From IMG/VR virus record IMGVR_UViG_3300049847_000198, positions 48,082 to 112,081 of that record: DNA of 64,000 nucleotides; one strand, 5' to 3'. The position numbers and the translations under genes are program-made. Position 1 is the stretch's first letter. The number at the start of each line of letters is the position of its first letter. Shown here piece by piece: positions 4,402-59,164 of this stretch. Below the pieces are notes generated by a model. That model saw nothing but the letters and a program-made list of their open reading frames with translations, was not told the origin of the DNA and searched no databases. Origin of the DNA: a virus.

Positions 4402-4424
4402 GGAGTGCCGCGCGGCACCTGAGT
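4402..4424 (+). repeat. Dispersed palindrome 'VPRGT', copy 1
   Basis: Core GTGCCGCGCGGCAC at 4405-4418 followed by CTGAG, 11 nt beyond the stop codon of the polymerase-like gene (stop 4430-4432, minus strand). It sits between that gene and the tape-measure gene. It belongs to a family of eight copies in the window with consensus TTTCGAGTGCCRCGYGGCAC then CTGA. It could act as a bidirectional terminator hairpin or as a REP-like mobile palindrome. Confidence 0.85.
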
Positions 4425-4429
4425 TTCGG

Positions 4430-5971
4430 CTACGCCGGAACGACTGCGACTGTCGGCGATAGGCGGGACTGCCGAAAGCAGTCAACGAGACACTGCTCAG
4501 CGAACTTTGCGTCCGACTCCGTCACCAACAGGCTATCGTGGATCGTGCCAAGAAAACGCTTCGGTCTCGCCTTGAGGAACGCGGCAGCAGCTTTGTGGAT
4601 CACGTACTGGCTTTCGATGTTCTGGAGTAGCTTCGGTAAGACCGAGTGATGTGACCGCTTCAAGGTGCAGATGATCTTCCAGACGTGAGGAAATTCCCTG
4701 ACAAACAAATCTCGGAACAGGCGACCCGGAACGTCTTCTTTTTCGCAGAAGATGCACTCTCTGAAGAATGTCTGTTTGAACTCATGCCGAGCCATTGATG
4801 CGTAGCTGGTGCCAGCAGGCACTAGCTTTTGGAAGTGATCGTAGAGTTGGCCTTCACAGCAGAGCGTGATGTACCGCTCGCACTCTTTCCAGTGATGCTT
4901 TACCAGCCTGATCGCCGACAGAACATCGCTTTCGATGCTCTTGCTCAGAGGAACTGCCGAAGTCGGTTCTTGGTACAATTCCTGTGTGTTTTTGCAGTCA
5001 AAATCACCGTAAGTCGTTTCTTTAGTTGATTTTTCGTTAGATTGTTGCATCATAAGGGTGTGGGAGGGAGAGGGGCTTTCCTGCGGTTGTGTGGCGTTGT
5101 CTTGTGCGTTTGTTACATTTCGCGTCAGACGTTCAGTTGTGACTTTAGCTACACTGTAGTCGTTTTGTAATGAGTACCGTTCGATCTTGTGTATCAACTC
5201 ACGTACCTTGTCAGACTCCACGGTGTCGCTGAGGTTGAAAAGAAACATCAACAGACATCCGAAGATGAACGGCTGGCTGTTTCGGACATCGGTGTTCCAG
5301 AGTGATTCTCCGTGCCATCGCAGGTATTGCCGCAGGTCCGAGGACAGGTTCGTTAGGTTACTATGAACTCGCCCGTACTTGTCTTCCATCAAAAAGAATT
5401 GATGCGTTGAGATCATGGTGATGCTTGACTCGTCCATCCATTGAGCGAACTTCGGGTTCTTGGTTGCCGAATAGTCCTTGGCGAATCGCACATGCCGCAG
5501 AGCCGCTGGCGTGTCGATTTCCAGCCCTCTAAGCAGTTGGTACAGGGATTTGATCGTCGGACTTGAGAACCTGTCCTGCTGATCGTTTCGGAACTTGTCG
5601 ATCTTGCGGTTCAAGCGGCGGTTCTTGACCGGACGGATTACTCCGTAGGCGTATCGGAATGTGCCTGTCATGCGGTAGCTCCTTGAATAAAAACCAGCCC
5701 TATAGCTCAGATCGACCTCGATGACACCATTTTCTCTAAGCCAGTCGATCCACTTCGAGAGTCTCTTCCACGAAACGACCTCCCGTAGCTTGTCGATCTT
5801 CAAGTAAACCCAATCGTCCGGGTCGTATCGCCGCGAGTCGTGCATGAATCGCCCGTAGACGCAGTGAACGATGTAGGCGGCTTCCTCCCAGTGCTTCGAG
5901 AGTTCTGGCGGCGCACGACTGGCGATATCCAGCGTTTCAGGCAGCGTCAGATATCTCTGCGTCCAAGCCAC
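4430..5971 (-). CDS. Polymerase-like palm-domain protein A (divergent family A or single-subunit RNA polymerase fold)
   Basis: 513 aa. It is clearly homologous to the plus-strand protein at 57497-59164. Family-A-like motifs appear in order: motif A TDVRNSQPFIFGC with Asp228; an O-helix-like FKQTFFRECIF around Lys399; a following helix SHHSVLPKLLQNIESQYVI; and motif C GTIHDSLLV with His478-Asp479. A low-complexity Gln/Ser/Thr linker at about residues 283-345 separates A from B. No exonuclease domain is visible. The family A relationship is inferred from motif order; whether it makes DNA or RNA cannot be told. It is followed by palindrome copy 1. The start is ATG at 5971; a promoter-like motif lies at 6171-6190. 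Confidence 0.65.
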   Translation of the reverse strand: MAWTQRYLTLPETLDIASRAPPELSKHWEEAAYIVHCVYGRFMHDSRRYDPDDWVYLKIDKLREVVSWKRLSKWIDWLRENGVIEVDLSYRAGFYSRSYRMTGTFRYAYGVIRPVKNRRLNRKIDKFRNDQQDRFSSPTIKSLYQLLRGLEIDTPAALRHVRFAKDYSATKNPKFAQWMDESSITMISTHQFFLMEDKYGRVHSNLTNLSSDLRQYLRWHGESLWNTDVRNSQPFIFGCLLMFLFNLSDTVESDKVRELIHKIERYSLQNDYSVAKVTTERLTRNVTNAQDNATQPQESPSPSHTLMMQQSNEKSTKETTYGDFDCKNTQELYQEPTSAVPLSKSIESDVLSAIRLVKHHWKECERYITLCCEGQLYDHFQKLVPAGTSYASMARHEFKQTFFRECIFCEKEDVPGRLFRDLFVREFPHVWKIICTLKRSHHSVLPKLLQNIESQYVIHKAAAAFLKARPKRFLGTIHDSLLVTESDAKFAEQCLVDCFRQSRLSPTVAVVPA

Positions 5972-6170
5972 GGATCATCCCGAATCGTTCGAGGATGCCG
6001 ATTTCTCGTGGCCAACAAAGAACGATAGCCACACGTCTCCGACAACGTATGGCTACGCCCTGAAATAAAGCCCGTAGGCTGTTGTTCCCTGTCCATACCG
6101 AGTCGGAGTTCGGCATCCAGATTATGCCGCTGCCGTCCGCTCGGATCAAGTCAAACCTATCATTCTCTGG

Positions 6171-6190
6171 TTTTCAGTAAAACGAACATC
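6171..6190 (-). promoter_or_regulatory. Promoter-like motif P1, with the intergenic stretch 5972-6211
   Basis: On minus the sequence is TGTTCGTTTTACTGAAAA, matching the recurrent motif TGTTCGTTTTGGTAAAAT. It lies about 200 nt before the polymerase-like protein A. The stretch between has only short frames (for example a TTG-started 70-codon frame ending at 5937) with no recognisable family, so I read it as leader. Confidence 0.45.
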
Positions 6191-6211
6191 GAGTTACGGG
6201 AGATTCCCGAT

Positions 6212-6478
6212 TTACTGGCCAGCCGTTGAAGAAATCGCTGCACTCTGAAAGAACGGATTGTTCGGATTGGCGAACGCAGGCGGGTCGTCCATGCGCACCT
6301 TGTACCGGAACTTCATCTTTTCGGGATCGACCATGACGACTTGGTCTTTCCATTCGCCGCTGATGAAGAAGAACGGCTTCTGACCGCATTCGTCTCGCTT
6401 GAAGTTGCCGGCATTGACTGCCAAGAAATTCTTGTCGCCGTTCATGGCATAGACGGTTCGCAATCGCACTCTACTCAT
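6212..6478 (-). CDS. Hypothetical protein
   Basis: 88 aa from ATG at 6478, overlapping the HU stop codon; an ATG at 6484 would add two residues. No family recognised. It contains a KPFFFISGEWKDQVVMVDPE segment and reads like a small soluble alpha/beta protein. It is translationally coupled to the HU gene upstream. Confidence 0.6.
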   Translation of the reverse strand: MSRVRLRTVYAMNGDKNFLAVNAGNFKRDECGQKPFFFISGEWKDQVVMVDPEKMKFRYKVRMDDPPAFANPNNPFFQSAAISSTAGQ

Positions 6479-6773
6479 CGGCATATTCCTTTTTTGCCAG
6501 TGCCGTGAACTTCCTCGCCAGCGTCGCTGAGGTGTTGAACTTAACGATCAGATTGTCAGGCACTTGAACGCTCTCCCCGGATCGTGGGTTCCTCGCCTTG
6601 TGTCCGGCACGCAGACGAACCTCAAAGACTCCGAGTCCTCTGACATCCACTCGGCGTTCCTCCTCCAGAGAAGCGACGATCGCCTTGAATGTTTTCTCGA
6701 CGAGTTCCCTGGTCTTCTTCTCGGTCAGACCAGTCATGTCCGAGATGGTTGCAATCAGTTTTTTGTTGAGCAA
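6471..6773 (-). CDS. HU/IHF-family DNA-bending protein
   Basis: 100 aa, normal length for the family. The helical N-terminus NKKLIATISDMTGLTEKKTR is followed by the strand signature VDVRGLGVFEVRLRAGHKAR and the DNA-embracing arm with NPRSGESVQVP. HU proteins bend DNA as dimers. The start is TTG at 6773, supported by AAGGAG 8 nt upstream. Directly before that is a copy of the 19-nt element also found before the next gene upstream. Confidence 0.9.
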   Translation of the reverse strand: MLNKKLIATISDMTGLTEKKTRELVEKTFKAIVASLEEERRVDVRGLGVFEVRLRAGHKARNPRSGESVQVPDNLIVKFNTSATLARKFTALAKKEYADE

Positions 6774-6786
6774 GACAGACTCCTTG

Positions 6787-6805
6787 AACTCTCGACCCGC
6801 GAACT
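6787..6805 (-). repeat. 19-nt direct leader repeat, copy a
   Basis: On minus AGTTCGCGGGTCGAGAGTT, immediately 5' of the CAAGGAG ribosome site of the HU gene. An identical copy lies at 6949-6967 in front of the 38-aa membrane peptide gene. Its position just ahead of two ribosome sites suggests a shared RNA-level control or processing site. Confidence 0.7.
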
Positions 6806-6811
6806 ACTTTG

Positions 6812-6928
6812 TCAAAAATTGTATGCAGGCTTACCGATCAGCGTCTCGGCAGCGGGCTTGCTGGCAAGCTTAGCAATGAGGCAAGCAGCAACAACGAAAA
6901 AGAGCGTAATGATGCAGAATTCTTTCAT
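6812..6928 (-). CDS. 38-aa single-pass membrane peptide
   Basis: ATG at 6928 with an excellent AAGGAG 9 nt upstream; stop at 6812. It begins MKEFCIITLFFVVAACLIAK, one hydrophobic segment (about residues 4-20) followed by a short polar tail ending AYNF. It may be an inner-membrane micropeptide or an uncleaved signal anchor; VAAC resembles a weak lipobox. It lies between two copies of the 19-nt leader element, between the tRNA and HU. Function unknown; the ribosome site makes translation likely. Confidence 0.65.
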   Translation of the reverse strand: MKEFCIITLFFVVAACLIAKLASKPAAETLIGKPAYNF

Positions 6929-6948
6929 TCCACGACTCCTTCTTTAAT

Positions 6949-6967
6949 AACTCTCGACCCGCGAACT
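6949..6967 (-). repeat. 19-nt direct leader repeat, copy b
   Basis: Identical to 6787-6805. On minus it is followed by ATTAAAGAAGGAG, the ribosome site of the 38-aa membrane peptide. Confidence 0.7.
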
Positions 6968-7030
6968 CACTAGCCAGACGGGATTGGTTCTGCCCACGAG
7001 TGCTCTTTCTGGCCTTGAGACACATTAAAA

Positions 7031-7102
7031 TGCGACGTGACGGAATCGAACCGCCTTTCAGGGAGTTGAAAATCCCTTGCATGACCAATCTGCCAACGCC
7101 GC
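7031..7102 (-). tRNA. tRNA with an 8-nt anticodon loop (Glu-UUC, UCA or CAA reading)
   Basis: 72 nt. The acceptor stem GCGGCGT pairs with ACGTCGC (one G-U pair) and the discriminator is A. The D arm is GCA/TGC around a loop with TTGG. The anticodon stem AGGGA/TCCCT is perfect but closes over eight bases, TTTTCAAC. The T arm GGCGG-TTCGATT-CCGTC is good. CCA is not encoded. The extra loop base leaves the anticodon open: TTC gives Glu, TCA a UGA reader, CAA Leu. Eight-base loops are known from +1 frameshift suppressor tRNAs. Confidence 0.8.
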
Positions 7103-7108
7103 ACGAAC

Positions 7109-7606
7109 CTACCCGATCACCCAATACTTCTCGCCCGTCAGCCAGTTATGAAAGTCTGGCGAACCTGGTCGATAGTGAAGAAACTTGTCGATCTTCTTTT
7201 CGAGTCGTGCCGCATCAACCGGACGACTGCCTTTGTTCTCGACTTCCGAATACTTCCTGCCGCGAATGAACGCCAACGCGAGTCCCGCGTACCGAGACTC
7301 TTCTCGAAGTTCTCGAATGCGATGAGAGCGAAGCAGTTCGACGTAGATCAGTCCGCATCGCTTTTCTTCCTGACGGATCAGTCGCGACTCCGCAGCAAGC
7401 GATTTTGCGTTGATCCTGAGCCTATGGATCGCGAAGACTCTTTGGTTGTCCCATTCGCCGGGATGCGCGGCGGCGTAAACCAGTCGCCGTTCCTGACGCT
7501 TGGTTCGCTGCTTGATCTTCTTGCGTGCTCCGAACTGCGGATGACAGATGATGGCAGACGGAGCGAGTTGATTGTGGTTCTGGTTTTCGATGGTTGCTGT
7601 GGTCAT
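7109..7606 (-). CDS. Hypothetical basic, helical protein
   Basis: 165 aa from ATG at 7606, chosen because AAGGAA lies about 7 nt upstream; longer frames up to 7675 lack such a site. It is rich in Arg/Lys/Glu helices, with a C-terminal stretch ending NWLTGEKYWVIG. No family recognised. It ends 7 nt before the tRNA, so both may be cut from one transcript. Confidence 0.6.
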   Translation of the reverse strand: MTTATIENQNHNQLAPSAIICHPQFGARKKIKQRTKRQERRLVYAAAHPGEWDNQRVFAIHRLRINAKSLAAESRLIRQEEKRCGLIYVELLRSHRIRELREESRYAGLALAFIRGRKYSEVENKGSRPVDAARLEKKIDKFLHYRPGSPDFHNWLTGEKYWVIG

Positions 7607-7693: not shown

Positions 7694-8485
7694 TCAGGAT
7701 TCTCCGTCAGGCTTCCATCCGTTACGGATCAAAACAGCGGCGAAGTCAGGCTTCAAATGATCTGGATGTTTTTTGAACTTGCCGTGCTCGTCAACGCTCC
7801 CGTTCTTGATCTTCAGAAGATTGTTTTCGTCTACGACGCTCTGCGCCTCGGCGAGTGGGAATCCGTGCGCGACGGAGGTTCCGACAGCAACGACACTGAT
7901 ATCGGCTACTGCGTCAAGCATTGCGACCAAATCAGGCTTCGCTGATTCCGCTAACCGCATCGCTGGATGAAAGAACAAGTCGTCGAAATCGACTCTTCCG
8001 GTATCGTGTCCAGTCGAAATAAACACCTGAACTGCCGCCGCGTCTGCGTACTCAAGCACTTCTTCTAAAAGAAGTCGCACACGAAGCTCTCGCGTCTTGT
8101 AGTCGGAGACTGTCGGCGACGGCGGGCATTCCTGCCCGAAGCCCTTCATCATCTGCCGCACGCGATCTTCGTGAGACGGCTTATGTGTCGGCCAGCAACC
8201 GATGAGTTTGTCTGCTGGATACGACTGCAAAGAAAACGGTTCGCTCGGTACTCCACAAACGGGAACCAAGTTGCGTCCGGCTGACCCAGAAACTTCACGA
8301 GCAATACCCTCAAGCAAAGACATGCGTCCTTCTCGCGTATAGGCCGTTCCGCTGGCAGACGTTTCGATGTCAAGTTGATCGCACCGCTCATGGTAACTAG
8401 CCACGTCTTCGGCGATCAGCGTTTGCAACGCAACTCCGCTTTCGATCTCTTCTTCCGTAAACGGTTCGGTTGGTTTTTCAATCAT
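7694..8485 (-). CDS. MazG/HisE-like nucleotide pyrophosphohydrolase
   Basis: 263 aa. The C-terminal half has the all-alpha NTP-pyrophosphatase pattern: a first helix with MMKGFGQECP, then RVRLLLEEVLEYADAA (the EExxE-type metal site), then MLDAVADISVVAVGTSVAHG and ENNLLKIKNGSVDEHGK. This family hydrolyses (d)NTPs to monophosphates; in phages it is thought to adjust nucleotide or alarmone pools. The N-terminal ~90 residues are unassigned. The start overlaps the stop of the clamp gene. Confidence 0.75.
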   Translation of the reverse strand: MIEKPTEPFTEEEIESGVALQTLIAEDVASYHERCDQLDIETSASGTAYTREGRMSLLEGIAREVSGSAGRNLVPVCGVPSEPFSLQSYPADKLIGCWPTHKPSHEDRVRQMMKGFGQECPPSPTVSDYKTRELRVRLLLEEVLEYADAAAVQVFISTGHDTGRVDFDDLFFHPAMRLAESAKPDLVAMLDAVADISVVAVGTSVAHGFPLAEAQSVVDENNLLKIKNGSVDEHGKFKKHPDHLKPDFAAVLIRNGWKPDGES

Positions 8486-9606
8486 TACCTTGCCTCAATT
8501 AGAGCCATAAGAAAGAAAACGCTGAAGTCCGCGTTACGCATCAGGAACGCACGCGGTTCCGACTGTGGACCACCAGCACACACATGCACAACCAGCGGTT
8601 CTTTGGACGGAAAGCACTTACTCGCCGAAGCCACGATCTCCACGTTCAAGCAAATCGTCACGTCAGGTTCGCCTTCACAACTACACGGCACCGTGGCTTC
8701 CGACTCACCATGCTGTGACTGCATCGACAGGCTGATCGTCTCTTTTTGGATGTGGGTGTCAATCCCCACGATCTCTGGCAGCTTCACCACGGCCATCTGT
8801 TGTGCTGCCAAGAAGAAATCACCAGCCTCTGCGATCGCCACTGGAGACGACTGCCTCAGTTTTCGATAGTTGGCCAGCGTGAATTTGCTGCCGATGTTCT
8901 GATGGCAGCCGACCTCAACAGCCATCTCTTCGCTCTTCGACTGCAATCGGATCGTCTTGTCGCTGGCGTAAACGTCCGCCTTCGTTCCAACACAGGCGTC
9001 GGCCAGCAGAGCGAGCGACTCGCGAGCACAGTTGATCTGCGGGAACTCTTCGCAGTCAGCGTTCAACGAGATACACACGAAGCGAGTCAGTTCGCTGCGT
9101 TCGCTCATGTCGTTACCGAAGACCATCGCCTTGCCAGCATCGCAGAATATGCCGCCTGAACCGATGCCGCCATCCCGCGTCGCTGACGACGAATACCGGA
9201 ACGCGGCACGCAGAACTTCAGGATCAGTCGAGAAGACAAACTTGTCGCTGAACTCCGGCATTGAGCGATTATCTTCTTCGTGCATCGTGTTGATGGTCGT
9301 CTTGCCGCCATCGAATGCGACGCCGATCTTCTCTTTGCCGACGCCGAGTTCTATAACTTCTCCGCGAGCACTCATTACGGCACCGAGAAGTTTTTCTGAC
9401 AGAACGTAGACGCAGAACTCGTCGTCGAACTTCTCTTCAAATGAGACCTCGCAGAACGCCGCCTGTGCATTCATCGCAAACAGAGACAGGACACGGTCTT
9501 TGCACGTCAGTTTGATCGCCTGATAGCACGGGTTCGGACTGCGAACAGCCGTGAACCGCGAGACCAGAGAGACAGCTTTCTTCAATAACTCAGATTTGAT
9601 TTTCAC
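8485..9606 (-). CDS. dnaN: DNA polymerase III beta sliding clamp
   Basis: 373 aa, close to the usual ~370. N-terminus MKIKSELLKKAVSLVSRFTA and C-terminus FLMRNADFSVFFLMALIEAR align with the three-fold clamp fold. Clamps encircle DNA and tether polymerases. GTG start at 9606 directly after the upstream gene's stop codon, with AAAGG in the leader. A phage-coded clamp argues for replication at least partly independent of host factors, together with the helicase and polymerase-like proteins here. Confidence 0.85.
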   Translation of the reverse strand: MKIKSELLKKAVSLVSRFTAVRSPNPCYQAIKLTCKDRVLSLFAMNAQAAFCEVSFEEKFDDEFCVYVLSEKLLGAVMSARGEVIELGVGKEKIGVAFDGGKTTINTMHEEDNRSMPEFSDKFVFSTDPEVLRAAFRYSSSATRDGGIGSGGIFCDAGKAMVFGNDMSERSELTRFVCISLNADCEEFPQINCARESLALLADACVGTKADVYASDKTIRLQSKSEEMAVEVGCHQNIGSKFTLANYRKLRQSSPVAIAEAGDFFLAAQQMAVVKLPEIVGIDTHIQKETISLSMQSQHGESEATVPCSCEGEPDVTICLNVEIVASASKCFPSKEPLVVHVCAGGPQSEPRAFLMRNADFSVFFLMALIEAR

Positions 9607-10075: not shown

Positions 10076-10128
10076 TCGAACCTGGTTGACGTTTTACGCA
10101 ATCGTTTTTTGTTTAACGACTTGCGGCT

Positions 10129-12196: not shown

Positions 12197-12571
12197 CGTT
12201 TGGCTTTCTTTTCATAAAACACAAAACCAATCATTCTGTGAAACGAATTCTGGTCTCACGGTCTCGAAGACGCGAGAGATCATCCATTCCACATCCAGAC
12301 ATCCTCGCAGTCGCACAGAACTACCAACTACCGCCAAGGACGCAGTCAGCCACGCCGTAGTTCTCCATGTACCGCTCATTAAATCGCATTGAGTCAGCAT
12401 TGCAGCGTCTTTCTTTTGAGTCGGTATTTTACCAAAACGAACAAGGAACGCAAGGGCCAGATACTGCGATTGACTCGCATGGCATGGATTTGGGACACAA
12501 CACCCGAATTTGACGCCGAACGGGACCATTAAGCCCGATCAACTAAAACTCTTTTAGTGGAGATTCGTACA
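12197..12571. promoter_or_regulatory. Divergent intergenic region with promoter-like motif P2
   Basis: 375 nt between divergent genes. At 12426-12445 the minus strand reads TGTTCGTTTTGGTAAAAT, a perfect member of the recurrent motif, pointing at the 12196 gene. The 230 nt downstream carry only very short frames (about 18-22 codons), so a long leader is likely. Near 12545-12556 the plus strand has ACTAAAACTCTTTTAG, a short hairpin before the tube gene. Confidence 0.55.
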
Positions 12572-13193: not shown

Positions 13194-14678
13194 ATGAACA
13201 TTTCGCGAGAAGATTTACAAAAGCTGATTATTGTCAAGGACTCTGGATGCTGGCACTGGAACGGAACAATTCATCTTCCTCACTACTGCCATGTGATTGT
13301 CGATGGCGAGAAATGCAACGCTCGTCGAGTGGTTAGGCAAGTTTTTGGACCACCATTCAACGAAAATCTTGCCCTGCTAAAGACCTGTAAAAACAACTAC
13401 TGCGTTGCGCCTGCGCATCACCTGACCGGCGATGAACGGTTTCTGAAAAACTACGCCGTCTCGGAAACTGGCTGCCATGAATGGAAGGGCGGGATTACGG
13501 TTAATGGATACGGAGTGACAGGGAACGGAGGTGGTTGCAAAAGAGCGCACAGGAGAATGTGGGAATTGAAGGTTGGTCAAATCCCGCAAGGGATGGTCAT
13601 CAGGCACCTATGCCATAATCGAAAATGTGTTAATATCGACCACTTAGCAGTTGGCACACACCAAGACAATATGGACGACATGGTTAAGGCTGGCAGAGCC
13701 TGTAACGGATGGAAGAACGGCAATTACAAGAAGTCTTACCTAGATGAAAAAGACATCCTCGAAATCAGGCAACTTGCCTCCGAAGACGAGTTTACTCTAT
13801 GGGAAATCGCCGAGGCTTACGGAGCCGATGTAAGCTATATCTCAGACATCGCAAAAGGTGATTGCTGGCCACAGGTTGGCGGACCAAGAACGAAAAGAGA
13901 AGACGATCCGGTTTTCAAATACATCACCAAGGGCAGCGAAAAGTTCAACGCCAAGATCACCGAGTCCGACGCAGTTCGTATCAGAGAACTATGCGACGAA
14001 GGAGTTCTCACACAGGGACAGATTGGAGATCAGTTCGGCATCGACCAAACAGAAGTCTCTGACATCGCTCACGGAATCATCTGGAAACACGTTGGAGGGC
14101 CGATTGTTGAAGGCCACTACCTGCCGACAAACCGAGAATACGACGTTGGCGAAGACCATCACGCAGCCAAGATCACTGAGATCGACGTCAAAGAGATTCG
14201 CAGGCTGTATGCCACAAAAGAAATGAATCAACAGCAGCTTGCCGAGCGATACGGACTAAAGCAGTGCCATGTATCCGACATCGTACTGAGTGTCTCGTGG
14301 AGTCACGTTCCGGCAGAGCATGAGATCAAAAAGAAAACCACTGGCGTAAACTCGCAAGGCAAAGCCTGCAAACTGACAGAAAATGATGTTATTCAAATGC
14401 GAGACTGCTACCGCAACGGAGCATCGTTCTCTGAAATTGCCAAAATGTTCAAAATCTCTCCAGATGCCGCCAGAAGCACGATCATTGGACTACGATGGAG
14501 TCATGTTCCCGGAGCGATTCCCGACGCCGGAAGAAACATCACAGAGAAGGATGCGATCAAGATAAAGGCGATGCTACGAGATGGAGAGAAGCCTAGATCA
14601 ATCGCAAAAGAACTAGGAGTCAAGCCGGGCGTTGTCTACAAAATATCAAGCGGTCAGTCATGGTCTCATGTGTCTTAG
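13194..14678 (+). CDS. HNH homing endonuclease with repeated helix-turn-helix units
   Basis: 494 aa; GGAG sits 7 nt before the ATG. Residues ~85-165 carry the HNH nuclease: CHEWKGG, RAHRRMWELK, then IRHLCHNRKCVNIDHLAVG. After it come about five units of 50-75 residues, each a helix-turn-helix followed by a short loop ending 'WxHVxG/P' (positions near 230, 305, 375, 450, 490), a NUMOD-like DNA-reading array. Free-standing HNH genes like this spread by cutting intron-less or gene-less alleles. It sits behind a terminator and converges with the gene at 14675. Confidence 0.85.
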   Translation: MNISREDLQKLIIVKDSGCWHWNGTIHLPHYCHVIVDGEKCNARRVVRQVFGPPFNENLALLKTCKNNYCVAPAHHLTGDERFLKNYAVSETGCHEWKGGITVNGYGVTGNGGGCKRAHRRMWELKVGQIPQGMVIRHLCHNRKCVNIDHLAVGTHQDNMDDMVKAGRACNGWKNGNYKKSYLDEKDILEIRQLASEDEFTLWEIAEAYGADVSYISDIAKGDCWPQVGGPRTKREDDPVFKYITKGSEKFNAKITESDAVRIRELCDEGVLTQGQIGDQFGIDQTEVSDIAHGIIWKHVGGPIVEGHYLPTNREYDVGEDHHAAKITEIDVKEIRRLYATKEMNQQQLAERYGLKQCHVSDIVLSVSWSHVPAEHEIKKKTTGVNSQGKACKLTENDVIQMRDCYRNGASFSEIAKMFKISPDAARSTIIGLRWSHVPGAIPDAGRNITEKDAIKIKAMLRDGEKPRSIAKELGVKPGVVYKISSGQSWSHVS

Positions 14679-19941: not shown

Positions 19942-20259
19942 TCACCTCCGAAGAGGCCGATCTGCTTGTTCGCTCGATTCAATCCAGGATGCAATTATCG
20001 ACATTGCGACTTCTTCGTTTTCAGCATCTGGTGTAACCATCTTATTCAGATTTTCGCGGCAACAGAGAACGAATCCTTCGTCAGAGAATCCGCTCACCAA
20101 TTCATCCTTTGAGAGCGAGTTCCAATCAACGTCAGATTCAGGAGGAACACCAATAACATCGAGAATCCAATCCTGAATTTTCCAATTAGGGTCTGCGTTG
20201 GAGACGATTCTGATTAGGCGAGACAAGTCTCTCGCAGAAACCGTGAACGATGTTTTCAT
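19942..20259 (-). CDS. Hypothetical protein
   Basis: 105 aa from ATG at 20259, chosen for the TAATG overlap with the ParB-like gene. Helical, acidic. The segment NWKIQDWILDVIGVPPES stands out but matches no family I know. Confidence 0.6.
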   Translation of the reverse strand: MKTSFTVSARDLSRLIRIVSNADPNWKIQDWILDVIGVPPESDVDWNSLSKDELVSGFSDEGFVLCCRENLNKMVTPDAENEEVAMSIIASWIESSEQADRPLRR

Positions 20260-21209
20260 TATCTTGCCTCCGGGTGAATCGCACGAAACTGCATATCGCT
20301 CAGCCAACCACTGCCGCCGCATCTCTGGCAGTCGCCGCCCACGCACTTCGGGCATTCCTTCGCTGGCTTCGACACTCGCAGGCACTCCTGCGCCGACTTG
20401 ATGTGTGCCTTCAGTTCATTCGTCTTGATCCGCTGTCCGCCATGCTCTTCCGTCAGGTCTTCGGCATCCCTCAAAAGATCGCCAAGCCGGTTTATCAACG
20501 CCTGAATCTTCCCAGCCGTCTCTTTTGCCACCTGCCACTTCGTCTGCGTGCCCGCAGGAGCGTTCGCGACAGCTTCCGTGAGCGTTTTAGCCTTCCCGGA
20601 CTTCACGGCTGCTACAGCCTCGATTTGGGCCTCTGGCGGCATATCCGCAATCTTCGAGGCATCGTTCACGCTGACGACGCCGTCGTCGACAGCCTTGACG
20701 ACAGATTCGTCAGCTTCGTTCAAAACTTTCGCCGCACGAAAAGCGGACCTACGTGACGCTCCAGTCTCTGTAGCTGCTTGCTCCACAACATCTTCCGTCG
20801 CTCGCTTTTTTCGAGTGCCACGTGGCACCTGAGTTTCTTCGGCTGCTTTGTCGGGTAATCCCTGCGTTCCGTTGCGATACGCAGCAATGCGTGCTGCCGC
20901 CATCGCTCGGTCCTTCGGCGTCAGGTGCCTGCGATTGATATTCTTCGACTTCACGAACTCCAAAAGAGCGGCATCGAGTTCAGCGTCCGACGTGATGCCG
21001 TCTGGAGGTTCCCACTCACGGTACTGCGGAGCGATTCCAGCGTCACGACAGGCGAGTTGGCGGTTCTTACCATCAAGAACTTGCCCTTCGTAAGTCACGA
21101 TCCAGTCTTCAAGCCCGTTGTCTTTGATCGACTCGACAAGATCGTCGTATTCATCGCCCAAAACATGACCGAAAATTTCGCAGTATGGGTGGTGCGGAAG
21201 CAATTGCAT
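20259..21209 (-). CDS. ParB-like nuclease/partition-domain protein with a palindrome insertion
   Basis: 316 aa from ATG at 21209 with AAGGGA upstream. N-terminus: LVESIKDNGLEDWIVTYEGQ then VLDGKNRQLACRDAG, the ParB/sulfiredoxin box. A helical region (LTPKDRAMAAARIAAYRN) follows, then HTH-like repeats with SVNDASKIADMPPEAQ, and a C-terminal zinc ribbon CPKCVGGDCQRCGGSGW. Palindrome copy 3 lies in frame and encodes QVPRGTRKK (about residues 127-135), a linker insertion tolerated by the protein. Such proteins act in partition or phage gene control; role here unknown. Confidence 0.7.
   Translation of the reverse strand: MQLLPHHPYCEIFGHVLGDEYDDLVESIKDNGLEDWIVTYEGQVLDGKNRQLACRDAGIAPQYREWEPPDGITSDAELDAALLEFVKSKNINRRHLTPKDRAMAAARIAAYRNGTQGLPDKAAEETQVPRGTRKKRATEDVVEQAATETGASRRSAFRAAKVLNEADESVVKAVDDGVVSVNDASKIADMPPEAQIEAVAAVKSGKAKTLTEAVANAPAGTQTKWQVAKETAGKIQALINRLGDLLRDAEDLTEEHGGQRIKTNELKAHIKSAQECLRVSKPAKECPKCVGGDCQRCGGSGWLSDMQFRAIHPEAR
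20811..20834 (+). repeat. Dispersed palindrome 'VPRGT', copy 3, inside a gene
   Basis: TCGAGTGCCACGTGGCACCT then GAGT; core 20815-20828. It lies within the ParB-like coding sequence in frame, so the element has entered coding DNA without breaking it. Confidence 0.85.
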
Positions 21210-21309
21210 CAATGAGTCCCTTGTCGGATTGTTTTTGTGTTCAAATTCGAGGTCCTGGAATCGAACCAGTCGTTCGCTTGTGTTCCTATGCCACGAACCC
21301 AGCGTAATT

Positions 21310-21573
21310 CTACGCCTGCCCGACCAACGGGCGTCGCCTCGGTTTTCGCTTCTTTGCCTTCTTGATCCAGACTTCGACTTTCTTGCCACACGCAATCAGT
21401 TCACGGCCTTGATGGCCCATCTCTCCGAAGCCGCTGTAGAACTCCATGTGGCGACCAACAAAATCCAGTATCTCAGCGATCTGAACCAGATGCGGTCCAA
21501 CAGTTCTGTAAGGATCACGGAACTTGATCGCCTTCTTTTTAATCGTCGCCCAGTTCGCCTTCTTCGTAGTCAT
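21310..21573 (-). CDS. Small basic hypothetical protein
   Basis: 87 aa from ATG at 21573 with GAGG about 9 nt upstream. Contains EFYSGFGEMGHQGRELIACG and a very basic C-terminus. No family recognised. Followed by a T-arm-like hairpin that is not a full tRNA. Confidence 0.55.
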   Translation of the reverse strand: MTTKKANWATIKKKAIKFRDPYRTVGPHLVQIAEILDFVGRHMEFYSGFGEMGHQGRELIACGKKVEVWIKKAKKRKPRRRPLVGQA

Positions 21574-25139: not shown

Positions 25140-25450
25140 GGCTTCTTCTTCGTGAATCGGAACACCGCAGGTCCGGTTTCGTTGTATCCAGGCTTTTCGT
25201 AAAGGACTCCCCATCCAGCCTCTCGGTAAATGTCCTCAACGTCCAAGTAATGCTTGGAGAAAATCTCTTCTCTTGTAGCCGCTAAAGCCGAATCGTGGCC
25301 GACAATCAAAGCGATCACGTCATCTTGCTTGAATGAAGAGTCGCGACCGTCCCATCGCTCAGCGATCAGTTTGTTGAATGCGTCGATTACGAAGTCTGGC
25401 AGCGACTCACGTTTCTTTTCGACAACTTCTTCAGGAGTAATTGGTTTCAT
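25136..25450 (-). CDS. Conserved phage protein of unknown function
   Basis: 104 aa. Pattern: a helix with DAFNKLIAERWDGR, then the basic/acidic FKQDDVIALI, then YLDVEDIYREAGWGVLYEKP and a C-terminal strand AVFRFTKK. I associate this with small proteins in T4-like and siphophage replication modules. TAATG overlap with the exonuclease gene. Confidence 0.6.
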   Translation of the reverse strand: MKPITPEEVVEKKRESLPDFVIDAFNKLIAERWDGRDSSFKQDDVIALIVGHDSALAATREEIFSKHYLDVEDIYREAGWGVLYEKPGYNETGPAVFRFTKKKP

Positions 25451-26358
25451 TACAGGATCACCACCGCTTGCGTCATCGGGTTAAACAACATCAGGTCGTC
25501 ACGCAGCCTGACCAAAGAACGATCAATCGGTTCTCGCTTCTTCAAGAACTCAAACAGATCGTCATCCACCTTGCGGTTCACAATCGGGAACCCTTCCATC
25601 GTCTTCATCTTCTCGACGGAACCATACGCCTCAAGAAGTGTTGACGCCGTCTGAAGTCCGACGCCGTGGCATCCCTTTACCCTATCCGTCGCATCTCCCG
25701 CCAGCACCTGCATGTCCAAAAACTGAGTCCATTCGCAGTTCCAGTCCGTCGCTGCGTCATCAGCCCGATAAAACTGCCACGACGGAACCCCATACTCATT
25801 CCGAACGCGACGCTGCATGTTCACTTTTCCTGGAACCATACACTGCCGCATATCTTTATCAACACACATCATCACACACTTCTTCTCACGTCGTACTGCC
25901 GCCTTAGCGATCGTCGCCATGCAGTCGTCAGCTTCCCACGCTTGAGCGACGCAGAGTTGGAGTTTATCCTCGAAGTTCTGGTCGATCTCGTTCAACAGGC
26001 ATTGATACATGCCCCAATACTCGGCGGGAACAGCCGAACGCATCCGCTTGTAGTTTGGGTCGATGATCTTTCGTTCCGAGTCGCCTGAATCAAGACAGAT
26101 AAACGCACGCTCTGGTTCAAGCCTCTCAAGCGACCAAGTGATCTCGTTCATCACCGTGTCGATTGTTTTCTCGACCGCATCGGTCGTCAGTTTTTCGTCA
26201 CGCGGATATCCGAGACACTCGTGAATCTTCTGTGCGACTCCGTAGTCCGCCGCATACCACGAATCGTCCGTGTAATACTTGGAGGAGTACGAAGCCCAAC
26301 ACATTCGGGACAACCACGGAAGGTCACAGGCCCACCACAAAGAACTTCCTTCAGCCAT
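25450..26358 (-). CDS. 5'-3' exonuclease (FEN/Pol I N-domain type)
   Basis: 302 aa. Acidic metal-site motifs typical of flap endonucleases: ICLDSGDSERK, AWEADDCMATIA, CVDKDMRQCM and DMQVLAGDATDRVKGCHGVG with the H3TH helix QTASTLLEAYGS. It degrades 5' ends or flaps in replication and recombination, a natural partner for the ERF recombinase 600 bp downstream. No polymerase domain is fused. Confidence 0.85.
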   Translation of the reverse strand: MAEGSSLWWACDLPWLSRMCWASYSSKYYTDDSWYAADYGVAQKIHECLGYPRDEKLTTDAVEKTIDTVMNEITWSLERLEPERAFICLDSGDSERKIIDPNYKRMRSAVPAEYWGMYQCLLNEIDQNFEDKLQLCVAQAWEADDCMATIAKAAVRREKKCVMMCVDKDMRQCMVPGKVNMQRRVRNEYGVPSWQFYRADDAATDWNCEWTQFLDMQVLAGDATDRVKGCHGVGLQTASTLLEAYGSVEKMKTMEGFPIVNRKVDDDLFEFLKKREPIDRSLVRLRDDLMLFNPMTQAVVIL

Positions 26359-30242: not shown

Positions 30243-32432
30243 TTAAAACTTAGTAACCACCGCAGTTGCAGTGGGACGTTTCGTTGTTGCTGATGCTTTC
30301 GCTACTTTAGCGACCACTGAAGCCACGGAACCACCAACGGCGGTTGCGACTGCCTTCGGGCGGGATACTACACAATTCGCCTTGGGCGTGAATACCACAG
30401 CCGAAGCAATAGTGACGCCTTCCTCAACCAAGGCGGCAATTGCGTTCTGCATCGAGACCGTGAGCGACGTGTGACTGAAAACGCAATCCACGGGAGTCAA
30501 CGCGATTGCTAATTGACCAGTCAGAGTCATCGAACTTGAGATTGGCGTGACGTTCGTTTCCGTTGTTACGGTCAAGCCGGAACCAGACACGGCCAACGAT
30601 GACGATCCGGGGCTTGCGTTTGTCTCCAAAAACACGACCGGATATGCCGCTGTTGCAATCAGTGATGCCGGGGACGGAATCGCGTCAATTGGCGTCTTTA
30701 CGTCCGCAGGCTGACCAGACACGACAAGACTTGCCGCGTCTGGATGAATGACGATTGCTTCGTTCGCAATCAGCGACTGACCAGAAAGAACCAGAAAAGA
30801 TGCCGATGGAGTTAAGTTGGATTCGGCAGTGACCAGTAGATTTCCGCCACTCGCAGACAACGAGACGGAACTGGGACTGATGTTCGATTCTGTCGTGACA
30901 ATTAGCGACTGGCCTGAAAGAATCAGACTGCCCGCTGTTGGCGAGAGATTCTCTCCAAACGTCACCAATAGCGATTGCCCTGACGTAGCGAGGCTTTGGT
31001 TGACTGGAGTTACGTTCGTTGCAGTCGAGACAACCAGTGCTTGCGAAGAAAGAGTCAGCGAAGAAGCAGAGAAAGAGACGTTCGTGTCCGTTGTTGCCAG
31101 CAGCGATTGACCTGTGAGCGTCAGGCTTGCAGCACTTGGTGATGCGTTTTCTTCCAGAAACACCGTTGGCGACTGCCCAGAAAGCACTAGAGACACGGCG
31201 TCTGGAGTGAGCGTCAAGCCGATAGTGATTTCAAGATTCTGCCCGTTCAGCACCAAACTGCTGGATGATGGAGCAAGATTCGTTTCTGTTGTTACCAATA
31301 AATCTTGCAGAGACGCAGTCAGCGATGCCGACGCAGGGGATACATTTGATTCGGTAGTGACTAACAGTAACCGACCTGACGCAACGAGACTTACGCTAGA
31401 TGGAGTTACGTTAGATTCCGTGGTAACTAAAAGAGACTGACCGGAAGTCGCCAGGGTCGCATTGCTCGGCGATATGTTCGAGTCAGTCGTGATCAGAAGC
31501 GACTGAGGCGTCGTCGCGAGAGACGCCGCAAGAGGCGTTGCGTTTGTCTCTTTTGTGACGACCAGTGATTGACCAGAAGCTGTGAGGCTTGCCAATGAAG
31601 GCGTGACGTTCGTGTCTTTTGTGACAAGCAGCGACTGTCCGCTAGTAATCAGAGACCCAGATGTTGGTGTCACGTCAGTCGGTACAGAAGACGGAACAGG
31701 CCGCAACGCAACCGCCGCGATGGCCCAGACCATGCCCATATCGAGTCCGGTCCAACTCATCGTCACGGCACCAGCCGGAGTTTTCTGGCCCTCGGTTGAT
31801 GAGCACGCTGAACCTGACACACCCGTGATATTACTACGCTCAGTCTGCCCGGCACCGACAGCGACAATCATGTCTGTCGTGGATAGGCAATCGACAACGA
31901 AATCGCCATCAACCGTCGTCGTGACATCGACCGTCGCGTCATCCGAACCCATCCCACCGCCACCGCTGTTTGAACTGAACGCCTCGGACGAGGTCGATTG
32001 ATCGACGTTCGTAAAACTGTTGGCAGTTGCCGCCGAGTCGATGCTCCCAGACAGCGTGACCGTGCAAGATTTCGTGCCACTGTTCGGGGCGACGAGTCCC
32101 CACAATTCCGAACGGCAGATTCCGTTCGTGACTGTTCCAAGTGATGTAAAAGACTGCCCATCTCGCGTGATGCTGCTCACGCTCCCTCCGACACTCATGA
32201 TTCCGACAGAGATGACGAGGTATCTGTTGCTGCCAGAACAGGTCACGTTCCAGGAATAGCTCGACTGGAAAATCTGAGCACCGGAGTTTGATGTCTGGTC
32301 CCAGACGACCGTTGTCGGTGCCGCCGCTGGCATGAGTACCGCAACGCCAGGGGGCTTAGCGACACGATCCCAGCGTTGCCAAAGTCTCTGCCTTGGAAAT
32401 ACTCGCGTCAGCCTGTGGAACAAACCCGGCAT
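30243..32432 (-). CDS. Repeat-built tail fibre or appendage protein
   Basis: 729 aa, possibly starting at Met34 (32333). Residues ~34-245 form a beta-sandwich-like head domain. From about residue 254 to 670 come about 19 repeats of exactly 22 residues, consensus VTPSxxSLxxSGQSLLVTTESN, then a Thr/Ala-rich tail. Such short beta repeats form elongated shafts. Repeats differ at DNA level by many synonymous changes. Virion location is inferred from neighbours. Confidence 0.65.
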   Translation of the reverse strand: MPGLFHRLTRVFPRQRLWQRWDRVAKPPGVAVLMPAAAPTTVVWDQTSNSGAQIFQSSYSWNVTCSGSNRYLVISVGIMSVGGSVSSITRDGQSFTSLGTVTNGICRSELWGLVAPNSGTKSCTVTLSGSIDSAATANSFTNVDQSTSSEAFSSNSGGGGMGSDDATVDVTTTVDGDFVVDCLSTTDMIVAVGAGQTERSNITGVSGSACSSTEGQKTPAGAVTMSWTGLDMGMVWAIAAVALRPVPSSVPTDVTPTSGSLITSGQSLLVTKDTNVTPSLASLTASGQSLVVTKETNATPLAASLATTPQSLLITTDSNISPSNATLATSGQSLLVTTESNVTPSSVSLVASGRLLLVTTESNVSPASASLTASLQDLLVTTETNLAPSSSSLVLNGQNLEITIGLTLTPDAVSLVLSGQSPTVFLEENASPSAASLTLTGQSLLATTDTNVSFSASSLTLSSQALVVSTATNVTPVNQSLATSGQSLLVTFGENLSPTAGSLILSGQSLIVTTESNISPSSVSLSASGGNLLVTAESNLTPSASFLVLSGQSLIANEAIVIHPDAASLVVSGQPADVKTPIDAIPSPASLIATAAYPVVFLETNASPGSSSLAVSGSGLTVTTETNVTPISSSMTLTGQLAIALTPVDCVFSHTSLTVSMQNAIAALVEEGVTIASAVVFTPKANCVVSRPKAVATAVGGSVASVVAKVAKASATTKRPTATAVVTKF

Positions 32433-55805: not shown

Positions 55806-56019
55806 GTTTACCTTCGTCGAAAAAGATCGGCTCACTCTTCAGCACTTCGTCGTTCCATGCTCTCAGCCAGTACGGGTCGCTGCTGATTTCAGAACACTCG
55901 CACGGCCAATCACTAACTCCACACGGGCACATCGCCTGTAACTTACTCAGTCGTCTCTGCTGGCAAATCTGAGCACAGCGACGCTGCGTTGAGACTGAAA
56001 AACTATCCTCTTCGCACAT
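55795..56019 (-). CDS. Small Cys-rich hypothetical protein
   Basis: 74 aa from ATG at 56019 (TAATG overlap). MCPCGVSDWPCECSEI suggests a metal site. No family recognised. Confidence 0.5.
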   Translation of the reverse strand: MCEEDSFSVSTQRRCAQICQQRRLSKLQAMCPCGVSDWPCECSEISSDPYWLRAWNDEVLKSEPIFFDEGKHAR

Positions 56020-56645
56020 TACCACGGTCTCTCACCGGACATCGCAGTCAGCCGCTCAAACGACGTCTTCTGCTGCACGAAATCTTCGGTCGGACGCCGC
56101 TTCAGTTCTTCGACGATCCGTGCCTTCATGCTGCCGCGCAGGTTCTTCATGTTACCGACCATCCACTCAAGATAATCGGCAGGCACCTTGGAAATCGCAA
56201 CTCCCGACCACTTCCCAAACGGCATCAGGAACTCAGGTGTCGGTCCAGCTTCCTTTAAGAGCTCCATGCACAGCTTCGTCGCCTCAGCGTTCTCGCTCGC
56301 CGGAATCCACTTGATCGCGACGTTGCGACCTTCCGCCAGCTTCTTGCACTCGGCGATCTTCTTTTTGATCCAAGACTTGTTCACCGCGAACTCGCCGGTC
56401 CATTGGTTTGCCAACATCAAGGCGTCTGAAAAGATCGTCACGTCTCGAATGTCGTCTTCGGCGACCAGCTTCATTGCGGCGAGCAGTCCCTCGTAGCCGC
56501 CATTGCAGTGACTCACGTTCTGGCCGAATCCTGCCGGTCCATTCTCGTCGGCGTAGAACTCGCCGTCTTTTTTCGCGACGAATGCGTAGCACGCAGTTCC
56601 TCCGGGATTCGGAGCACAGTAGCCCTTGACGTAGATTTGGAACAT
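56019..56645 (-). CDS. RNase HI-like domain fused to a DUF3820-like domain
   Basis: 208 aa from ATG at 56645; a GTG at 56648 adds one residue. N-domain: FQIYVKGYCAPNPGGTACYA, SHCNGGYEGLLAAMKLV and VTIFSDALMLANQWTGE, RNase H-like but with Lys8 where the first catalytic Asp usually stands. C-domain: LMPFGKWSGVAISKVPADYL, the DUF3820 pattern. RNase H removes RNA primers; the altered residue leaves activity uncertain. Confidence 0.7.
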   Translation of the reverse strand: MFQIYVKGYCAPNPGGTACYAFVAKKDGEFYADENGPAGFGQNVSHCNGGYEGLLAAMKLVAEDDIRDVTIFSDALMLANQWTGEFAVNKSWIKKKIAECKKLAEGRNVAIKWIPASENAEATKLCMELLKEAGPTPEFLMPFGKWSGVAISKVPADYLEWMVGNMKNLRGSMKARIVEELKRRPTEDFVQQKTSFERLTAMSGERPW

Positions 56646-57259
56646 CACTTCGCCTCCACTGCCGAATCACTGGCATCCTCTTTGTCTTTGAACGAAAACA
56701 GATCGCACTCAGGATGACGGTATTCAGGGCAGCAATCGGTTCCGTCGTTCGGGAAGTCATAGAGCGACTCGTCTCCCCACTCGGACCACAGATCGTACAT
56801 ATCCTCCAGGGCTTCCTCGACTTCTTCCTGAGTCTTCGTCCCGGAATAAAGAACAGGTCGATCAGTCTCAACAACCTTTCCGACATCTTCCATGAGTCGC
56901 TCGTAGGTCAGCCCGAAGTCGTCGGCGAAACGCTGTATGGTTGCGTTTCTTTTGACTTCCCTCGTCGGTGCCGCAAAAGCGATTTCAGGGTGATCCCAGT
57001 GATGCTGCACGTTCGGAATCTCCGTCTGCGCCATGAGCAACCAGAAGGACTTACCGGTCAGGATTGTTGACTTCAAAAACGGATCAGCGACTCCCGGACC
57101 TTTTTCGTCAGGCACCGCCTCGTTGAATTCGTTCAAGCCGACTCGCGATCCCGGAGCGATTGGCTTGCCAGCCCGCACCGCCACAATCGCGACGTGAATG
57201 GCGTCCTTGTCTCCAAGTTCAGCCGGACTCTTTCCGAGGACGTTCTTTTTGTTAATCAC
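56645..57259 (-). CDS. Hypothetical protein
   Basis: 204 aa from GTG at 57259, supported by GAAAGGCAAAGTA just upstream; frames starting further up lack this. VLGKSPAELGDKDAIHVAIV near the N-terminus, later helical and acidic with CCPEYRHPECDLF. First gene after promoter-like motif P3. No family recognised. Confidence 0.6.
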   Translation of the reverse strand: MINKKNVLGKSPAELGDKDAIHVAIVAVRAGKPIAPGSRVGLNEFNEAVPDEKGPGVADPFLKSTILTGKSFWLLMAQTEIPNVQHHWDHPEIAFAAPTREVKRNATIQRFADDFGLTYERLMEDVGKVVETDRPVLYSGTKTQEEVEEALEDMYDLWSEWGDESLYDFPNDGTDCCPEYRHPECDLFSFKDKEDASDSAVEAK

Positions 57260-57306
57260 TACTTTGCCTTTCTGTGAGTTGAAATAGAAGCGATAAGCGG
57301 ACGAGG

Positions 57307-57324
57307 ATTTTACCAAAACGAACA
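57307..57324 (-). promoter_or_regulatory. Promoter-like motif P3
   Basis: Minus strand TGTTCGTTTTGGTAAAAT, identical over 18 nt to P2 at 12426. 48 nt before the GTG at 57259. Probably heads the long minus operon down to about 48 kb. Confidence 0.6.
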
Positions 57325-57345
57325 GCGTTTCGCAACCAAAGACGT

Positions 57346-57375
57346 TTTCGAGTGCCGCGCGGCACCTGAAAACTA
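57346..57375 (+). repeat. Dispersed palindrome 'VPRGT', copy 7, longest form
   Basis: GTTTTCGAGTGCCGCGCGGC, then ACCTGAAAAC: 30 nt, palindromic almost throughout. Core 57352-57365. It lies between divergent genes, 132 nt before polymerase-like protein B. Confidence 0.85.
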
Positions 57376-57410
57376 AGGCTAGAAGTTTTTGATCGGCCCA
57401 TCTAAACTAG

Positions 57411-57446
57411 AAGCCGCGAGAGGAACGAGTCCAATCGCGGCTTTTT
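57411..57446 (+). terminator. Terminator-like hairpin ahead of polymerase-like gene B
   Basis: Stem AAGCCGCGA / TCGCGGCTT with a 15-nt loop and a TTTT tail, 51 nt before the ATG at 57497. No gene ends here on plus, so it would work as an attenuator of a leader transcript. Confidence 0.7.
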
Positions 57447-57496
57447 CGTTGTCTGAAGCGTTTCGCGGCGCGTCAGGCGGCAGCTACATCAGGGCA

Positions 57497-59164
57497 ATGA
57501 TGAGCATGACGGATTTTATTCCAGCCACGAAGAAACGTCAATCAGCCAGAAGACCGCATTCATTGACGGTCCCGAAGGAAATTCGGTTTGGCGATTTGCC
57601 GCCAGAATTGGCCAAGCATCCCGAAGAGGGACTCTGGATCGTCAGTTCGCTTTTTAGTCGCTCGCTTTACGATTCGCGGTACGAAAATGCCGATCAGTGG
57701 GTTCCGCTTAGCTCCAAGGTGATGGCGAAAATCGTCCGCAAAGAATGCGTCAAGAAGTGGCTTTCTTTTCTGGAACCAGAATTCATTAAGTGTCGGGGAA
57801 AGTCCTATCAGGCAGGCGTTAAGTCAAAGGAATACAGAATGAGCGACAAGTTCCGCCATCAGTCAGGGAAAACGATTCAAGTTCGAGACAAGATGGTCTC
57901 CGAGAAACTCGACGGCTGGCAGGCTGAACGAGAGGAATGGAAAGGCGACAAGACGCTGGAAATGCTTCTCAAACACCTCGACAAGATCACGATTCGGCGG
58001 CAGGCGGCCACGGACTACATCTACCATGAGAAGGACTACAGCGATCCGAGCATCAAGAACCCGGAGCACGCCAGAAACTGCGACGAGACATCAATCGAGG
58101 CGATGGCCTCAAAGCATCGCTTTTTCATCGTAGACAAGTACCGCAGAATCCACACGAACCTGACGAACATCTCGTCCGACCTGCGGCAGTTCTTGCGGCT
58201 ACGGAAAGGCGGAGACCTGAGCGTCGTAGACATCCGCAACAGCCAACCATTCATCTTCGGCTGCCTGCTTCACGAACTGCTCGGCATGAGCGACGACATT
58301 CGCGACATGGCGACGGCAGAGATCGCTAGGCGAGTTTACGAGTACGCCAACGACGCCATCGCAGAGGACGAAAACGAACGACGCCGAGACGTGAACAAGC
58401 GTAAACGTAGTGAACATCTGACGCCATCAAGTTCCGCTGCCGCCTCGTCCGCTCCCGTTCCCCCGCTCCATCCCACACCCTTATGTGTCGGGTTTTTGGC
58501 ACAAAATGACCACTTTGAGATTCGTAAGTCTGAACAGGAACTGGAGTTACGTCAATTTAATAGCGTGTGTCCACTGCCAGACACAAAAGGCGCAAGTAAA
58601 TACAAGGTAACGACTTACGAAAACACATCTCGCTCAATTCTGTCGATTTCGTCCGAATCCGTGGTCGCGGCGATCAGACTGGCAACGTGGCACAAATCCG
58701 AGATTCAGAGGTATTCAGACCTGTGCTCTCAGGGATTGCTCTACGAGTTTTTCGCGCAGCACTTGGCGACTGGGTCGGAACTCAAAGACCCGTTGAATCG
58801 TCGCCGCCTCAAGGAGTCGTTCTTCCAAGAGACCATCTACTGCAAGAGCGTGACGGCACCTGACAGGCAACTCAGGGATGTTTTTAAGAACGAGTTTCCG
58901 GGAGTCTGGAAGATCGCCTGTCAGCTAAAATCCTCTCACCATTCCGTGCTACCCAAGCTGATGCAGTTTTTAGAGAGCGGATACATCAGGAAGGCCGTCG
59001 AGATATTCGCTCAGAAGCATCAAAATCGCTTTGTAGCCACGATCCACGATTCCCTGATGGTTGAGCACTCTCTGGCTGAAGACGCTGAGGAAGCGATCAG
59101 GGACGCTTTCAGCGGCATTCCACTGATGGTGCATACCGAGCGGCTGTCGTGGCACGCTGGGTGA
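57497..59164 (+). CDS. Polymerase-like palm-domain protein B
   Basis: 555 aa from ATG at 57497; a longer frame to 57389 would read through the hairpin. Paralogue of 4430-5971: both share the N-terminal PPEL, NLTNxSSDLRQ, motif A VVDIRNSQPFIFGCLL (Asp245), KESFFQETIYC, SHHSVLPKLMQFLESGYI and motif C ATIHDSLMVE (His516-Asp517). A Ser/Pro/Ala linker separates motifs A and B. Family A-like fold inferred. Four palindrome copies lie within 1 kb of its ends. Confidence 0.65.
   Translation: MMSMTDFIPATKKRQSARRPHSLTVPKEIRFGDLPPELAKHPEEGLWIVSSLFSRSLYDSRYENADQWVPLSSKVMAKIVRKECVKKWLSFLEPEFIKCRGKSYQAGVKSKEYRMSDKFRHQSGKTIQVRDKMVSEKLDGWQAEREEWKGDKTLEMLLKHLDKITIRRQAATDYIYHEKDYSDPSIKNPEHARNCDETSIEAMASKHRFFIVDKYRRIHTNLTNISSDLRQFLRLRKGGDLSVVDIRNSQPFIFGCLLHELLGMSDDIRDMATAEIARRVYEYANDAIAEDENERRRDVNKRKRSEHLTPSSSAAASSAPVPPLHPTPLCVGFLAQNDHFEIRKSEQELELRQFNSVCPLPDTKGASKYKVTTYENTSRSILSISSESVVAAIRLATWHKSEIQRYSDLCSQGLLYEFFAQHLATGSELKDPLNRRRLKESFFQETIYCKSVTAPDRQLRDVFKNEFPGVWKIACQLKSSHHSVLPKLMQFLESGYIRKAVEIFAQKHQNRFVATIHDSLMVEHSLAEDAEEAIRDAFSGIPLMVHTERLSWHAG

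Follow-up and report, generated by a model that had tools for sequence, protein, structure and literature searches.

The closest described systems for the proteins considered here are the family A DNA polymerases (DNAPs), such as E. coli Pol I, Taq and T7 gp5 (PF00476), and the single-subunit RNA polymerases (ssRNAPs), such as T7 gp1, SP6 and the mitochondrial enzymes (PF00940). In Taq, the steric-gate glutamate is E615 (PMC4215692). We analyzed a 64,000-nucleotide stretch of viral DNA, hereafter the window, corresponding to positions 48082-112081 of the 112,081-base IMG/VR virus record IMGVR_UViG_3300049847_000198, and in particular two of its genes, A and B, whose products combine features of both enzyme groups. 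The interpretation towards which we lean is that they are compact, exonuclease-less accessory right-hand polymerases of the family A/T7-type RNAP superfamily, duplicated in the lineage of the window phage and possibly using ribonucleotides. The record is a fragment, so that absences within its 112 kb prove little. Coordinates are window positions unless a record position is stated.

4430-5971, minus strand: gene A, 513 aa, GTG start, predicted compact polymerase of the family A/ssRNAP superfamily.
57497-59164, plus strand: gene B, 555 aa, ATG start, paralogue of A; frame open back to a TTG at 57389.

Both open reading frames were found at the positions and on the strands given in the initial annotation, and the relatedness it had proposed was borne out: BLASTP aligns the two proteins with 37% identity over 523 columns (E 1e-95), and the blocks DVRNSQP/DIRNSQP and TIHDS are present in both and aligned. 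As judged by sequence comparison, A and B are clear paralogues. Gene A is flanked by a small DNA-binding protein gene on one side and a tape measure gene on the other. Copy number was checked in 27 records; 26 hold a single family gene and only the record of the window holds two. A tree of 26 sequences groups A and B as sisters (100% ultrafast bootstrap), hence the duplication belongs to the lineage of the window phage. For the suggestions that the two genes are host-range variants and that the host is a planctomycete, no evidence was found.

Searches of Pfam, PHROGs and PDB sequences gave no convincing match for either protein. Searching 50,697 phage records at the protein level recovered the family from six uncultured genomes only, each larger than 590 kb (lengths include 634,780, 636,363, 642,428 and 735,411, with LR756511 at 595 kb), and from no cultured phage of this collection. 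The first four of these lengths match the largest four genomes described by Al-Shayeb et al. 2020 (PMC7162821). A terminase-based search of the same 50,697 records for closer relatives of the window phage returned none. Scanning IMG/VR with a seven-member alignment confirmed 167 loci, of which 80 were kept, and a second, partly overlapping scan confirmed 131; one-protein or two-protein queries had given no match. Two narrow scans of cellular genomes, each with two short patterns covering a subset of the family, detected no relative. We conclude that A and B belong to a real polymerase family without a name in public family libraries, whose carriers are large uncultured phages.

The active-site motifs are the first line of evidence for this assignment. 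Conservation was counted over 48 family representatives, residues being numbered as in the gene B protein, and the motifs were compared with the DNA and RNA polymerases of T7, SP6, phiKMV and Syn5 (four DNAPs and four RNAPs). In gene B they lie as follows.

58133-58186, plus strand: motif 1 equivalent, D213-K-Y-R-R217 to R230; D213, R217, N221 and R230 in 48/48; compare ssRNAP DxRGR.
58229-58249, plus strand: motif A, D245-I-R-N-S-Q250-P; D, N, S, Q and P in 48/48.
58799-58843, plus strand: motif B, R435xxxK439xxxF443xxxxY448C449; K in 48/48 and R or K four residues before it in 48/48; T7 DNAP/RNAP motif B.
59039-59053, plus strand: motif C, T515-I-H517-D518-S519; H, D and S in 48/48.

Motifs 1, A, B and C thus occur in the same order as in family A DNAPs. 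The invariant N, S and P of motif A are N248, S249 and P251; G413, Y416, F463, P468, K478, Q490 and E493 are likewise invariant, and position 435 is R or K throughout. The features that define the superfamily, a catalytic Asp in motifs A and C and a Lys in motif B, are each present in all representatives. The spacing of motif B, R/KxxxKxxx(F/Y)xxx(F/Y)G, is that of both T7 DNA polymerase (R518-K522-Y526-Y530-G) and T7 RNA polymerase (R627-K631-M635-Y639-G); [RK]xxxKxxx[FY]xxxFG is found in 38 representatives, and the other ten, including A and B, carry a one-residue or similar change. The family departs from family A DNAPs in giving no PF00476 match, in reading DxYGR instead of TGR at motif 1, and in having Gln at the steric gate: position +5 of motif A is Gln in 48/48, whereas it is Glu in the DNA polymerases and Gly in T7 RNA polymerase. 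Motif C is HDS, as in the T7, SP6 and phiKMV RNA polymerases, and not HDE, as in three of the compared DNA polymerases. Motif 1 likewise fits the ssRNAP form D-x-[RY]-G-R, with Tyr in place of the first Arg of DxRGR. On the other hand, motif A is DIxNSQP and not the DGSCSG of ssRNAPs, the family proteins are far shorter (about 390-420 aa versus 779-883 aa in reference ssRNAPs), their structural score to ssRNAPs is weaker, and no member matches PF00940 above cut-off, the single weak score being E 0.059 for locus L012; a profile search of the genomes for T7-type RNA polymerases was uninformative, no control having matched. Given catalytically intact motifs, A and B are very probably active polymerases. 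The invariant Gln in place of the steric-gate Glu, together with the ssRNAP-like motifs 1 and C, makes ribonucleotide use our leading guess, and we consider the chances of A and B accepting ribonucleotides to be evenly balanced.

The second line of evidence is the predicted fold. An AlphaFold2 model of B built from a 43-sequence alignment reached a mean pLDDT of 78.5 and a pTM of 0.78; a single-sequence model (pLDDT 34.5) was unusable and was replaced by it. Foldseek against the PDB gave three matches at E<=1e-3 (best 2.5e-4), and ranks 1-31 are all family A DNA polymerases, while T7 DNA polymerase gives a 165-column alignment (probability 1.00) and mitochondrial RNA polymerases follow at ranks 37 and 41. 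In BFVD, the best matches are two proteins of a size similar to the family, A0A516L5C2 (409 aa, TM 0.77 by target) and A0A8D9FR19 from an uncultured marine phage (403 aa, TM 0.75 by target, annotated 'Putative DNA polymerase I'), with 15% and 16% identity to B, respectively. The model has a right-hand palm with fingers, so that the outcome named in the initial annotation as refuting, a structure lacking a palm, was not obtained; no exonuclease domain was found in the family protein. The polymerase palm that the initial annotation had proposed from motifs A and C is therefore supported by structure prediction as well as by invariant motifs, and A and B almost certainly have a polymerase fold. 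At its N-terminus the model shows a further domain.

57602-57841, plus strand: probable N-terminal winged-helix domain of gene B, residues about 36-115, seen in model secondary structure only.

This region consists of a helix (42-59), a strand (69-72), two helices (73-76 and 82-92) and two strands (97-100 and 110-115), an order that is the one of winged helices; the domain is thus a probable winged helix, a difference from the family A DNAPs.

In one clade the family gene adjoins a gene for another small palm protein (cluster c21; in LR756511, L008, L009 and L010) of about 430 aa, likewise exonuclease-less, which in contrast to the family matches PF00476 (DNA_pol_A) and has the steric-gate Glu (DYHFHE) and HDG. 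The order family gene then small DNA_pol_A gene was seen at L003 (2896-5342), L008, L009, L010 and L012, the last with one small ORF between them. Elsewhere, gene neighbourhoods vary by clade, the commonest having conserved unknown genes on both sides. At L054 (5510-5710) and 13 other loci, a short ORF immediately preceding the family gene matches a stretch of major capsid protein Gp23.

What could such an enzyme do for the phage? We surveyed 21 carrier records for polymerases and primases. PolB was found in 16 and DnaE in four, so that all 20 records other than that of the window have one or the other, and neither was found only in the window's fragment. Each of the four records with DnaE additionally contains a DNA_pol_A match, which in the loci viewed directly adjoins the family gene. 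Since the carriers have another replicative polymerase, a role as main replicase is unlikely, and the A/B enzyme is probably an accessory polymerase. This bears on an earlier proposal, that the proteins are a phage RNA polymerase or replicase: the main-replicase version is unlikely, while an RNA polymerase or other replicative role keeps some room. No multi-subunit RNA polymerase beta subunit was found in the carriers. Toprim (DnaG-type) primase domains are present in 10/21 carriers, several of them in ORFs of about 335 aa, which excludes the family enzyme as sole primase there; two other Toprim searches of the carriers yielded few matches. As a working model, the probable winged helix would place the enzyme on particular DNA sites, where the palm would extend a chain as an accessory to the main replicase. 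The product could be short chains of RNA or of mixed type, which would serve to prime or restart synthesis or would be transcripts of special sites.

Several observations weigh against this picture. Global TM-scores to solved structures are only 0.2-0.3, in part because domain arrangement and length differ, and the best structural matches are DNA polymerases rather than RNA polymerases. The N-terminal domain has no Pfam or PDB sequence match. Profile-profile comparison with known polymerases agrees in direction with the motifs but is weak and not decisive, with P from 0.003 to 0.07 (neighbouring small PolA 0.003, DNA polymerases 0.008, RNA polymerases 0.07, control 0.84); the same method gives P 0.58 for a known DNAP-RNAP pair. 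Few residues and a small reference set underlie the RNAP signature, which is to be taken as a lead, not a demonstration. Finally, no other polymerase was found in the 112-kb fragment itself, so that 'accessory' is deduced from the relatives.

The rival that survives best sees the enzyme as a DNA polymerase that serves in gap filling, Okazaki maturation or lesion bypass, resembling a Pol I split into parts. The top structural matches and the name of the nearest annotated relative (DNA polymerase I) point this way, as do a separate 5'-3' exonuclease encoded at 25450-26358, a clamp-like protein at 8485-9606 and, in one clade, the position of the family gene directly upstream of the small DNA_pol_A gene. 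That same clade also provides a counter-argument, because its adjoining family A palm is a normal one with Glu and may already take the gap-filling role; moreover, the family lacks this Glu, has HDS in place of HDE and carries the RNAP-like DxYGR. We regard this rival as possible but doubtful. That A and B are the main replicative polymerase, as the lack of PolA, DnaE or PolB profile matches in the 112-kb record might suggest, is highly improbable, this record being a fragment and PolB or DnaE occurring in all the other records surveyed.

A further feature distinguishes A and B from their relatives. The segment between motifs A and B has 119 residues in A and 141 in B, versus a family median of 12, and the inserted segment common to both is predicted to be disordered (pLDDT below 50 for residues 315-376 of B). 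Within it lies a short stretch of conserved DNA.

58280-58670, plus strand: insertion between motifs A and B of gene B, 141 aa, modelled with low confidence and containing the conserved DNA block.
58461-58485, plus strand: 25-nt C-rich block in gene B, G-rich on the minus strand; G-quadruplex (G4) motif at 58454-58480 (minus).
5051-5075, minus strand: 25-nt block in gene A, 23/25 identical to that of B, G-rich on the plus strand; G4 motif at 5056-5075 (plus).

The block reads CCCCNCTCCNTCCCACACCCTTATG. Its two copies are read in different codon phases (2 in A, 1 in B) and shuffles reached at most 19/25 identities. In both genes the strand complementary to CCCCNCTCCNTCCCACACCCTTATG has four G-tracts, and the only two (G3+N1-7)x4 matches of the 112-kb record are these, at matching places in A and B (ten Markov simulations gave 0-1). 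This insertion, with a frame-independent C/G-rich block holding the record's only two G-quadruplex motifs, is newly found here. The two motifs are not independent, owing to common ancestry or conversion, and no G4 motif was found in family genes elsewhere. That the DNA letters were kept while the frame changed is hard to explain by protein selection, which suggests a cis-acting DNA or RNA element. The simplest alternative is a recent gene conversion of a short patch. A self-splicing intron or riboswitch was rejected, as no relevant Rfam match was obtained for the insertion. There is a precedent for an element within a coding sequence: the lambda origin sits inside the lambda O gene. By analogy, the largest phages could possess a novel class of mini RNA polymerase or primase that is site-specific and stands between family A DNAPs and T7-type RNAPs; A and B would be its duplicated form, the internal conserved G-quadruplex-forming element of each gene being its own loading or start site; we consider this extended proposal unlikely as a whole.

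Besides the polymerase genes, the window contains a dispersed palindrome. All eight reported copies are real (4401, 10128, 20811, 39566, 57348, 59367, 59925 and 59978), the one at 10128 being degenerate, and a ninth full copy is found beyond the window, at position 30369 of the record. Copies mentioned below are the following.

4401-4423: palindrome in the gap separating gene A from the tape measure gene, probably not belonging to the polymerase.
57348-57370: palindrome in the divergent region upstream of B.
59367-59389: palindrome downstream of B.
59925-59947: palindrome downstream of B, imperfect core.
59978-60000: palindrome downstream of B.
20811-20833: palindrome inside the ParB-like gene 20259-21395 (minus), between its domains.

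With up to two mismatches the core GTGCCRYRYGGCAC occurs 9 times versus 2.5 expected, and no shuffle reached 9; the oriented consensus of the nine copies is CAGGTGCCRCGYGGCACTCGAAA. Eight are intergenic, in convergent, divergent and tandem gaps, and one is within the ParB-like gene. The palindromes are most likely a feature separate from A and B. As a better guess than a link to the polymerase, they could be sites bound by the ParB-like protein, as a dispersed parS-like centromere, or by a different phage regulator. This idea, plausible though tentative, is consistent with the distribution of the copies, with the CACGTG core of several of them and with the ParB-like (PHROG) matches of the protein (E 8.7e-14 and 3.6e-10); chromosomes are known to carry dispersed parS sites (PMC5016525). 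Against it, half of the copies have a GCGC core, ParA was not found in the fragment and the ParB-like protein has no Pfam match.

The initial annotation had instead proposed that palindrome and polymerase form one mobile unit, like repetitive extragenic palindromic (REP) elements and their dedicated protein. As it had noted, five of the eight window copies are indeed no more than 1.2 kb away from A or B (five of nine in the record), with a naive probability of 0.001 for intergenic placement and the same count in 18 of the 10,751 gene pairs of the record. This nominal value is weakened by A and B having been chosen after the fact, and three of the five nearby copies form one local cluster (two are 53 bp apart) and are thus not independent. 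A search of IMG/VR did not recover the exact element, and hairpin density is not raised by the relatives' family genes (0.110 per kb near versus 0.116 per kb far). In relatives, palindromes occur without regard to these genes, the outcome that the initial annotation had named as refuting the pair, and do not accompany the gene as a REP system would predict. The REP-associated tyrosine transposase is an HUH/Y1 nuclease; A and B instead have a polymerase fold, with no match to such a family and no nuclease motif seen. With one copy moreover inside the ParB-like gene, the mobile unit is largely refuted and we give it very little credence.

Some other features of the window deserve mention. The intergenic sequence TGTTCGTTTTGGTAAAAT is repeated, on either strand, at 12424, 57305, 61896, 63397 and 38075 and outside the window, and resembles an extended -10 promoter family. 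Its other strand, TTTACCAAAACGAACA, was considered as a phage promoter for A and B and rejected, since TGTTCGTTTTGGTAAAAT reads as an extended -10-like host promoter and a widened matrix drifted. A tRNA gene at 7030-7103 (minus; Rfam tRNA 48 bits) was left with an unassigned anticodon by ARAGORN, which printed four bases (ttca). The ORF at 13194-14678 (plus) encodes a 494-aa protein with several tandem HNH endonuclease and HTH stretches (46 PHROG matches), and that at 63731-63964 (plus) is of low complexity, with repeated NG, DG and YG dipeptides.

The largest known phages thus have in common a polymerase gene that is unnamed in public family libraries. Because its active site combines traits by which DNA-making and RNA-making enzymes differ, one purified member would test how this choice is set, and possibly also how the single-subunit RNA polymerases relate to family A. 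With the frame-independent block of A and B, the idea of a cis-acting element within a polymerase gene can be tested directly. The family also bears on the purpose of an extra polymerase in phages that already have a replicase.

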